From positions 310,001 to 374,000 of the forward strand of contig NZ_CP096884.1 of the NCBI RefSeq assembly GCF_023273855.1: a stretch of DNA of 64,000 bases, read 5' to 3'. Numbering within the stretch: the first letter of the stretch is position 1; each line of letters opens with the position of its first letter. Shown in pieces: positions 10,947-13,907 of this stretch. Both the position numbers and the translations under genes were made by a program. Source of the DNA: Seonamhaeicola sp. ML3. Lineage in GTDB: Bacteria; Bacteroidota; Bacteroidia; Flavobacteriales; Flavobacteriaceae. The notes beneath the pieces were generated by a model, which was not told the DNA's origin, did not search any database, and saw only the letters and a list, made by a program, of their open reading frames with translations.

Positions 10947-13673
10947 CTACCCCAAACTAGCTAAACTCGCCTTTAAGGTTTCAATCTTAGCCAATGCATC
11001 TGCTTCCTTTTTCTTTTCACTAGCGACAACCTGCTCTGGCGCATTATTTACAAAACGTTCGTTAGAGAGTTTCTTTTGTACAGATTTAAGGAAACCTTCA
11101 GTATAACTTAACTCGTCTGTTAGCTTTTTAATTTCAGCCTCCACATCAATAGCACCAGCCATTGGTATAAAGTATTCGTTAGATTTTACACGATAGGTCA
11201 ACGCGCCATCAATTGTTTCGTTTACATATTCAACACCTTCAAGGTTACCTAATTTCTTAATAACGGCATCGAAAGTGTTGGCTTGCTTTTCATTGTTAAT
11301 TACCGAAAACGCGATAGCATCTTTAAACGCAATATTCTTTTCTTTTCTTATGGTCCTAATACCAGAAATAACATCGGCGGCAAAATCAAATTCAGCAATT
11401 AAGGGTTCATTTGCAGGTTTTAATTCTGGCCATGTAGCTACTATTAAGGCGTCTTCTGATGTTCTTTCAGTAATTAACTGCCAAATTTCTTCGGTAATAA
11501 ACGGCATAAACGGATGCAAGATCTTTAAGTTGTCTTCTAGTAAACTTATAACTGCATTGTATGTTATAGCATCTATTGGTTGTTGATATGCTGGTTTTAC
11601 AATTTCCAGTAACCAACCGCAGAAATCATCATAAATTAATTTGTAAATGGCCATAATAGCATCGCTTAAGCGGTATTTACTAAAATGGTCTTCAATGTCT
11701 GCTAAAGCTTTTTGAAATTTAGCTTCGTACCATTCTAATGCTATTTTACTGGATTGTGGCTGCTCAACAGTTTCAGACACCTCCCATAAGGTTGTTAAAT
11801 AAAACGCACTCCAAATTTTATTACCTAAACCTTTTCCTTGCTGACATAGGGCTTCATCGAACAATAAATCGTTACCAGCAGCTGCACTCAACAGCAATCC
11901 AACACGTACACCTCCAGCACCGTATTCCTCGATAAGTTTTAAAGCATCGGGTGAATTCCCCAGAGACTTACTCATTTTACGACGTTGTTTATCGCGTACT
12001 AAACCTGTTAAATACACATTTTTAAAAGGCTTATCATTTTTGTACTCGTACCCAGCAATAATCATACGGGCCACCCAGAAAAATAGAATATCTGGACCTG
12101 TTACCAAATCGTTGGTTGGGTAATAGTATTTTATATCGTCGTTTTCGGGGTTTCTTATGCCATCAAAAACGCTCATTGGCCATAACCACGATGAGAACCA
12201 AGTGTCTAGCGCATCGGTTTCTTGTTTTAAGTCTTCTTTAGTAATTGACCTCTCGACTCCGCTCGAGGTGACATTTAGCTTTTTATTAGCCAATTCTAGA
12301 GCTTCTTCAACAGATTCTGCAACAACAAAATCTTCTTTGCCATCGCCATAGTAATATGCCGGAATTTGTTGCCCCCATAATAACTGACGTGAAATATTCC
12401 AATCGCGGATGTTTTCCATCCAGTGACGATAGGTGTTTTCGAACTTCTTTGGGAATAACTGAATGTCATTTTCTTCATCTAAAACTGCCTTAATAGCCGG
12501 TTTTACCAAATCTTCCATCTTTAAAAACCACTGGTCTGATAGCCTTGGCTCAATGATAGCTTTGGTTCTTTCTGAAATTCCAACACGGTTATTATGTTCT
12601 TCAATCTTAGCAATCAGTCCTAGCTCGTCAAGTTCCTTTACAATGGCCTTTCTAACCTCAAAACGGTCTTTGCCCTCGTAATGCAAGCCGTAACTATTTA
12701 GAGTAGCATCTTCATTAAAGATATCTACCACTTCTAAATTGTGCTTGTCCCCTAATACTTTATCGTTCTCATCATGAGCCGGTGTAACTTTTAAACATCC
12801 GGTACCAAACTCAACATCTACATACTCATCTTCAATTATAGGAATCACTCTATCACAAATTGGCACAACGGCCTTTTTACCTTTTAAATTGAAATGACGC
12901 TCATCTGTTGGGTTGATGCAAATTGCTGTATCTCCCAAAATAGTTTCAGGGCGTGTAGTTGCAATAGTTAAAAAGGCCTCCCCTAACCCCTCCGAAGGAG
13001 GGGAACTCTCACTCTTATGTTGAGCATCCTGCTCAGTTCCCCCTTCGGGGGTTAGGGGGCTTATTTTATATTTTATATGATATAACTTCCCTTGTTTGTC
13101 GATATACTCAACTTCTTCATCCGATAAAGTAGTTTTGGCTTCAGGATCCCAATTCACCATTCTATAGCCACGATAAATTAAGCCTTTGTTATATAAATCC
13201 ACAAATACCTTAATCACCGCTTCACTCATATCGTCATCCATAGTGAATTTAGAGCGGTCCCAATCGCAAGAACACCCTAGCTTTTTCAATTGCTCAAGAA
13301 TAACACCCCCATATTCATGGGTCCAATCCCAAGCATGTTTTAAAAACTCATCTCTAGTTAAATCGTTTTTATTAATTCCTTGTTCCTTTAACTTAGCAAC
13401 AACCTTGGCTTCGGTAGCAATAGAGGCATGATCTGTTCCGGGTACCCAACACGCATTTTTACCTTGTAAACGCGCCCTTCTAATCAATACGTCCTGTATG
13501 GTATTGTTAAGCATATGCCCCATGTGCAAGACTCCGGTAACATTAGGCGGAGGAATGACTATGGTATAAGGCTCTCTTTCATCGGGTTCTGAATGAAAAT
13601 AATTATGTTTCATCCAGTAGTCGTACCACTTGCTTTCTACCTTGCTAGCATCGTATTTAGACGGAATTTGCAT
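10947..13673 (-). CDS. valS: Valine--tRNA ligase, with two in-frame repeat insertions
   Basis: Charges tRNA-Val with valine and edits mischarged threonine. It is a class I synthetase: the HIGH motif is in PPNVTGVLHMGHM near the N-terminus and KMSKS is in RRKMSKSLGN near residue 590. The ATTRPET editing-domain signature follows the first insertion, and a C-terminal coiled coil closes the protein. I chose the ATG at 13673; a TTG at 13706 would add 11 residues that are not family-like. Two stretches look foreign: residues about 204-233 (GGTEQDAQ...SPPSEGLGEA) and about 467-476 (TSSGVERS). Both are encoded by palindromic repeats. The frame stays open, so the enzyme is probably functional. Confidence 0.96.
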   Translation of the reverse strand: MQIPSKYDASKVESKWYDYWMKHNYFHSEPDEREPYTIVIPPPNVTGVLHMGHMLNNTIQDVLIRRARLQGKNACWVPGTDHASIATEAKVVAKLKEQGINKNDLTRDEFLKHAWDWTHEYGGVILEQLKKLGCSCDWDRSKFTMDDDMSEAVIKVFVDLYNKGLIYRGYRMVNWDPEAKTTLSDEEVEYIDKQGKLYHIKYKISPLTPEGGTEQDAQHKSESSPPSEGLGEAFLTIATTRPETILGDTAICINPTDERHFNLKGKKAVVPICDRVIPIIEDEYVDVEFGTGCLKVTPAHDENDKVLGDKHNLEVVDIFNEDATLNSYGLHYEGKDRFEVRKAIVKELDELGLIAKIEEHNNRVGISERTKAIIEPRLSDQWFLKMEDLVKPAIKAVLDEENDIQLFPKKFENTYRHWMENIRDWNISRQLLWGQQIPAYYYGDGKEDFVVAESVEEALELANKKLNVTSSGVERSITKEDLKQETDALDTWFSSWLWPMSVFDGIRNPENDDIKYYYPTNDLVTGPDILFFWVARMIIAGYEYKNDKPFKNVYLTGLVRDKQRRKMSKSLGNSPDALKLIEEYGAGGVRVGLLLSAAAGNDLLFDEALCQQGKGLGNKIWSAFYLTTLWEVSETVEQPQSSKIALEWYEAKFQKALADIEDHFSKYRLSDAIMAIYKLIYDDFCGWLLEIVKPAYQQPIDAITYNAVISLLEDNLKILHPFMPFITEEIWQLITERTSEDALIVATWPELKPANEPLIAEFDFAADVISGIRTIRKEKNIAFKDAIAFSVINNEKQANTFDAVIKKLGNLEGVEYVNETIDGALTYRVKSNEYFIPMAGAIDVEAEIKKLTDELSYTEGFLKSVQKKLSNERFVNNAPEQVVASEKKKEADALAKIETLKASLASLG
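12246..12275. repeat. Palindromic repeat inside valS (second insertion)
   Basis: The sequence TTGACCTCTCGACTCCGCTC continues as GAGGTGACAT. ACCTCtCGA can pair with TCGaGGT apart from a bulge. This word pair resembles a repeat I recall from many Bacteroidota genomes (GTCACCTCGAGC...GTCGAGAGGTC). It encodes about ten residues between LANKKLN and ITKEDLKQETD of ValRS. Confidence 0.6.
12975..13062. repeat. Palindromic repeat inside valS (first insertion)
   Basis: The two arms are inverted copies. The left arm begins GGCCTCCCCTAACCCCTCCG and ends GAACT (12975-13007). The right arm begins AGTTCCCCCTTCGGGGG and ends GGGGGCTT (13035-13062). Each arm also forms its own hairpin (CCCTCC-GAA-GGAGGG and CCCCC-TT-CGGGGG type), and a small GAGCA-TCC-TGCTC hairpin (13022-13034) lies between. 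It is locally far richer in GC than its surroundings, and it is read through in frame. Confidence 0.8.
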
Positions 13674-13907
13674 ACTTTGGAATGATTTTTGACTTTTGAT
13701 GAGCAAAAGTACTTATATTTCTGTTTCTGTGAAAACTATTGTGTCCTTTTGGACGGTTAATAATTTAACTAAAATTTTAGGGTATCACAGGAAAGTTATA
13801 TGTAACTTTAGCCAAGTAGAATATGTTAACATTGGTGCATTTCATCTATAAATTTTGCATGTTGTAGAAAAAGTACCTATGTTTACGAAGAATTAAAAAA
13901 TAAAGTA

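Follow-up and report, generated by a model that had tools for sequence, protein, structure and literature searches.

An in-frame palindromic insert in valS of Seonamhaeicola sp. ML3 and related palindromic arms around DUF559 domains

The valS gene and its palindromic insert

The window analysed is a stretch of 64,000 nucleotides from Seonamhaeicola sp. ML3 (contig NZ_CP096884.1, positions 310,001 to 374,000). Its minus strand carries valS, the gene for valine--tRNA ligase, identified by a profile match of 1085 bits (cut-off 704). Within the gene lies an 88-base element (12975-13062) consisting of two inverted arms, 32 and 28 nt long, separated by a spacer of 27 nt. The reading frame is open throughout, insert included, and the insert, at ORF residues 216-245, is followed immediately by LTIATTRPET. 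The features are summarized in Table 1.

Table 1. Features of the valS locus (positions in the window)
Feature	Position	Strand	Remarks
valS	10947..13706	-	Valine--tRNA ligase; open from TTG 13706, likely start ATG 13673
In-frame insert	12972..13061	-	90 nt, SPLTPEGGTEQDAQHKSESSPPSEGLGEAF; codes for 30 aa where congeners have a 6-aa turn
First arm in gene sense	13035..13062	-	AAGCCCCCTAACCCCCGAAGGGGGAACT; short type, own hairpin
Inter-arm spacer	13008..13034	-	27 nt; place occupied by the endonuclease domain in DUF559-bearing relatives
Small central hairpin	13021..13035		TGAGCA-TCC-TGCTCA
Second, inverted arm in gene sense	12976..13007	-	AGTTCCCCTCCTTCGGAGGGGTTAGGGGAGGC; long type, own hairpin
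Editing-domain motif ATTRPET	12942..12962	-	Codons directly after the insert
Second, unrelated palindromic repeat	12249..12274	-	In frame (VTSSGVERS); precedes DALDTWFSS

The 95 bases from 12972 to 13066 fold far better than expected, both as RNA of the minus strand (z -4.65) and as DNA of the plus strand (z -5.59), with none of 200 dinucleotide shuffles as good in either case. The G+C content of the element is 0.602, as against 0.387 for valS, and is the highest of any 88-mer in the window; this value was reached in only 3 of 63,912 88-base segments, all of which overlap the element. The insert is missing from ValRS of all six congeners, which carry a six-residue turn instead, e.g. EGSDEV (YHINYQI-EGSDEV-LTIATTRPET), so that 30 residues replace 6 and the net gain is 24. 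A palindromic sequence has thus been inserted into valS with the frame kept open. The predicted ValRS model is poor (mean pLDDT 57) and shows the insert in a loop of low confidence that joins strands 69-86 and 114-120, a predicted position that fits the tip of a beta-hairpin.

No Rfam match was found between positions 12200 and 13800, and plasmid and phage sequences gave no match to the 95-base query. A Pfam scan of the ValRS protein returned synthetase domains only; a splicing domain was not found. An earlier note, made from the letters alone, had described an 88-bp element with inverted arms, each forming its own hairpin, in an essential tRNA synthetase gene of much lower G+C content, and all of this was borne out. 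Its statement that about 30 residues are added before ATTRPET stands for the number of residues, the position and the open frame; the insert is, however, a replacement of six residues and not a pure addition.

The second palindrome of valS is a separate repeat. With up to two mismatches, its core CTCGACTCCGCTCGAG matches 7 places in this genome (valS included), 17 in G001 and 3 in G004. Among the six congeners a similar peptide (VTLSAVEAP) occupies the site in G002 only, and the DNA of G002 gave no match to the pattern with two mismatches allowed.

Distribution and settings of the arm repeat

Short and long arms align out of register, so fuzzy patterns were used in place of a covariance model. 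The closed 3.47-Mb genome holds four arms at three places, i.e. two places besides valS. The pattern CCCCTARCCCC-hairpin-GGGGRA is present in 34 of 149 genomes of the family, with no match to the reversed control pattern in any, and reaches 118 matches in G039 (some places are possibly counted twice). A 32-base long-arm pattern with three loop bases left free found 52 loci in genome contigs, almost all with Bacteroidota titles; the exceptions by title are a MAG called Bdellovibrio and 'Bacterium BMS3Abin03', and no Rickettsia title is among them.

Most arms seen stand alone in the manner of REP sequences. Many lie directly behind stop codons (judged by eye), none of 22 arms sampled from G039 falls inside an ORF of at least 70 aa, and 9 of these lie within 150 bp 3' of a stop codon on the same strand. 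The fetched DNA contains DUF559 at only 5 of the 52 long-arm loci.

Ten ORFs with a long arm in frame were scanned. Five exceeded the curated cut-off, namely ValRS (L106), MutS2 (L102), HisB (L090), AroA (L123) and LeuRS (L096); the others were below the cut-off or without match (IcmF-like L093, V-ATPase subunit I-like L137, ABC transporter L133, L122 and L094). All four open frames of the arm are represented, but these ORFs were picked by their open frame and do not address frame bias. In ValRS L106 the arm precedes DVLDTWFSS, the same place as the second palindrome of the present valS. An apparently decayed two-arm insert occupies the insertion turn of ValRS in G170, a member of another genus; no other such insert was seen by eye in the peptides of 39 ValRS rows (37 genes). 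A HisH-like gene (L015/L075, G005:C2:303408) appears by eye to have an arm of another type in frame at its N-terminus, with the sequence DSSPSGRLGGASVVIIDYG.

Since the valS insert is missing in congeners and its arm occurs elsewhere, a repeat has entered coding sequence and left the frame open. The suspicion that it might be ordinary conserved ValRS sequence, or confined to one place, was thus removed by the alignment of close relatives and by the genome search. The interpretation offered with the earlier note, a repeat that spreads into coding sequence and is tolerated there, is supported in part: entry and open frame hold, and the likeness to Rickettsia palindromic elements is an analogy. 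With so few copies in this genome, spread is seen from comparison between genomes and not inside it.

DUF559 domains between palindromes in host genes

DUF559 domains flanked by inverted arms like those of valS sit in frame within LeuRS, where they occupy the turn before TTRPDT, and within MetH; this observation is new. In LeuRS of G189 the order is CCCCCTAGCCCCCAAAGGGGGAAC, DUF559, GTTCCCCCTTCGGGGGTTAGGGGG. The arms of valS and those of LeuRS in G189 and G029 and of MetH in G191 follow the same consensus, and both are inverted pairs. Among nine LeuRS loci with a readable editing motif, five carry a DUF559-like sequence before FTTRPDT (L031, L096, L119, L124, L127), confirmed by HMM in four of them and seen for L031 as L191 in the DUF559 locus set; three are empty, and L105 holds a peptide like the second valS repeat. 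The shared motif marks the LeuRS turn before FTTRPDT as the counterpart of the ValRS insertion turn. Hyunsoonleella ulvae has a filled site and H. jejuensis an empty one. In LeuRS of G189 (L217), LNTMPGWAGSSWY is preceded by an additional palindrome-like peptide, GPPTPKGGADAENTPSGVYG, and L268 has another repeat-like stretch there.

DUF559 (PF04480) occurs in 55 of the 149 family genomes: in 31 of the 34 arm-positive genomes and in 24 of the other 115 (Fisher p 8e-14), arms adjoining DUF559 being counted on both sides of the test. Of 92 DUF559 places listed, 86 were parsed. The hosts are LeuRS (12), HemD at the N-terminus (6), RecG (5), MetH (3), HisD at the C-terminus (1), a threonine-dehydratase-like protein (1, L266) and a possible intein (1, L271); the other 57 were taken as standalone. 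Hosts were checked by HMM for L217, L226 and L272 (LeuRS), L233 (RecG), L275 (MetH), L193 (HisD) and L196 and L203 (HemD), with L266 falling below the HMM cut-offs; the others were named from shared motifs.

At these 86 loci the arm density within 250 bp of DUF559 is 0.88 per kb, 23-fold the 0.038 per kb found more than 1 kb away; control densities are 0.035 per kb in 26 RAYT loci and 0.004 per kb in 50 ValRS loci. By a GC-hairpin criterion, a hairpin lies beside DUF559 (260 bp upstream, 200 bp downstream) in 43 of 86 loci, as compared with 14 of 1024 far 200-bp windows and 5 of 52 RAYT flanks. The arm pattern matches at 11 of 26 gene-embedded loci examined, with both arms caught in three, and the orientation at those 11 is that of valS throughout (upstream plus in 5/5, downstream minus in 9/9). 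Over all 86 loci orientation is mixed (upstream 8 plus and 5 minus, downstream 16 plus and 9 minus). No match to the arm pattern was found at the five RecG and six HemD copies, which by eye are flanked by other palindrome types. The HemD copies (L189, L194, L196, L202, L203, L213) have DUF559 fused to the N-terminus via palindrome-derived linkers and form a separate DUF559 group (100/99).

DUF559 is present, and a splicing domain was not found, in each of L217 LeuRS, L233 RecG and L275 MetH. At L271 (G170:C1:236312) DUF559 lies in a protein that holds VVVHNC and has a weak intein-splicing match (28 bits, below the cut-off of 35.8); here the domain is perhaps in a splicing context. No DUF559-bearing ValRS was found among the places listed, with no frame above 935 aa in about 150 of them (392 of 394 genomes matched). 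Among 18 odd genomes, the ValRS matches of G524, G466 and G458 (L334-L336, L343-L345) are split near the insertion site, at query residues 218-229, and the frame of G458 is 1020 aa long.

The recG gene of the present genome carries DUF559 in frame, with a palindrome of another type on its flanks, between the motifs DEQH and TAT (L233, G000:C1:2751845-2752141). A second DUF559 gene of this genome is standalone (C1:1041525), and neither of the two adjoins the arm pattern. The structure predicted for the recG-embedded domain (pLDDT 87) matches 3hrl (E 9.5e-7) and I-Bth0305I (3r3p_B, E 3.6e-4, TMt 0.76), which suggests a fold of this kind. The insert is present in two of seven genomes of the genus (G000, G003) and missing in five; 3 of 30 recG loci read are filled and most others have the short turn KLWxKNxxPPH. 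In G001, G006 and G004 (L374, L373, L378) the turn has one extra residue compared with most insert-free relatives, a possible excision scar in each.

A tree of 81 DUF559 domains (114 columns, midpoint root, many forks weak) has a branch (99/93) that separates the embedded copies of LeuRS (12), RecG (5), MetH (3) and HisD (1) from the standalone and HemD copies. The LeuRS copies are not one group: L217 groups with MetH (98/89) and L197 with HisD (94/76). The nuclease motif D58, E69, D71, H75 is kept in 19 of 21 embedded copies; part of it is gone from LeuRS L268 and L272, whose branch has a length of 1.68. In all 10 pairs of five RecG copies and all 45 pairs of ten LeuRS copies, similarity is lower for the insert than for its host, and so there is no sign of recent horizontal spread of the embedded copies, a possibility that was considered and is unsupported.

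Origin of the valS insert and comparison with known systems

The valS insert is likely to be an arms-only, non-autonomous copy of a mobile Bacteroidota element that is palindrome-ended, inserted in frame, endonuclease-bearing and not spliced. The full form would consist of a palindromic arm, DUF559 (EDxHD-homing-endonuclease-like) and an inverted arm, with a single ORF through all three, inserted in frame close to motifs conserved in LeuRS, MetH, RecG and others. It would persist in the mature protein, since no splicing domain is seen. As valS has a 27-nt spacer with no DUF559 between the arms, its insert is called an arms-only copy and not a full member. Descent from an endonuclease-bearing form is probable, by loss or absence of DUF559; the endonuclease would drive mobility by making the break where the arms enter, with about 18 bp of target lost, and the translated insert would be tolerated at the beta-hairpin tip. 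A wider proposal is put forward tentatively: a self-mobile EDxHD/DUF559 element of Bacteroidota with inverted palindromic ends may invade essential genes in frame and unspliced, near conserved motifs, with arms-only copies such as that in valS as its non-autonomous, MITE-like form. It would survive without splicing on account of its palindromes, which would encode linkers that the host protein tolerates. The full element may have arisen long ago and now pass on mostly vertically, the arms spreading or being left behind by unseen steps.

An unlikely but not negligible alternative is that the arms are an independent REP-like family moved by another enzyme, that DUF559 genes merely lie within or next to such repeats and carried them along, and that the valS insert is a REP dimer. 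The sampled arms of G039, all outside ORFs, agree with it, as do the 47 of 52 long-arm loci with fetched DNA free of DUF559, the Y1 transposase found in 7 of the 15 genomes looked at (two of them the arm-rich G056 and G053), and the published intragenic REP dimers that code for 20-30 residues, some in tRNA synthetases (PMC3733652). Against it, the arms caught at 11 of 26 gene-embedded DUF559 loci have the orientation expected of an inverted pair, and neither this genome nor the arm-rich G039, G029 and G033 have the Y1 transposase (PF01797). A RAYT was weighed as mover and is unlikely on the same absence and because none of 26 RAYT loci has an arm by the first pattern; the looser pattern found three arms in 85.8 kb.

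It is very improbable that the insert is skipped by ribosomal bypass or removed by protein splicing, giving a mature ValRS free of it. Hairpin elements hopped by ribosomes do occur near homing endonucleases (T4 gene 60/mobE; mitochondrial byps), and the below-cut-off splicing match of L271 counts in favour of this reading. The insert, however, keeps the frame and is stop-free, though one frame per arm strand holds TAA or TAG; leuS, aroA and others are likewise stop-free, but were chosen by open frame. The splicing domain was not found in ValRS, L217, L233 or L275. That a natural ValRS loop simply varies in length here and is palindromic by chance can practically be dismissed: turn length does vary in nature (e.g. 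G164 and G309, the latter with a longer loop, its DNA by eye free of a GC-rich palindrome), but none of 200 shuffles folds as well, family members occur elsewhere and all six congeners lack the insert.

If the reading as an arms-only copy of a palindrome-ended endonuclease element is true, such genes would have a further entry route, by way of a palindrome-ended endonuclease retained in the mature protein. Intragenic palindromes of Bacteroidota would then have a testable enzyme, and LeuRS, ValRS, MetH and RecG of these bacteria would be natural experiments in insertion tolerance. The open-licence papers searched, by title and opening lines of the abstract, name neither this repeat nor DUF559 inserts in synthetases, which is not proof of their being unpublished.

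Rickettsia palindromic elements (RPEs) are alike in that a palindrome lies in frame in a conserved gene and is kept as a peptide insert (PMC3733652). The valS insert would work like RPEs and intragenic REPs; the likeness to RPEs is an analogy, and the arms here are CCCCTARCCCC hairpins of Bacteroidota, for which DUF559-bearing full forms exist. REP/BIME dimers of the GTAG and CGTC families are short hairpins, also in inverted pairs, mostly intergenic near gene ends and sometimes inside ORFs including tRNA synthetases, where they code for 20-30 aa; in-frame palindromes are thus already published for other bacteria and phyla, tRNA synthetases included (PMC3733652). The GTAG/CGTC foot was not seen by eye in the arms, in which CTAA, CTAG or CGAA precedes the hairpin. 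RAYT-associated REPs differ further, as this genome and the copy-rich G039, G029 and G033 are without Y1 transposase, and the RAYT-REP features looked for were not found.

A DUF559 gene is placed in the EDxHD family in PMC9403480. The modelled recG-embedded fold resembles EDxHD homing endonucleases such as I-Bth0305I (3r3p) and 3hrl, whereas the domain here lies inside host proteins between palindromes, with no intron or intein. Inteins, too, are in-frame insertions that bring an endonuclease into essential proteins close to conserved motifs; the present inserts differ in that no splicing domain was found in ValRS or in the LeuRS, RecG and MetH proteins scanned, and the valS insert is only 30 aa long. 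Gene-entering hairpins, some tied to homing endonucleases, are also known as the GC clusters and double-hairpin elements of fungal mitochondria and from the T4 mobE/gene 60 cassette. Those systems belong to other organisms and to other endonuclease families than the valS insert and its DUF559-bearing relatives.
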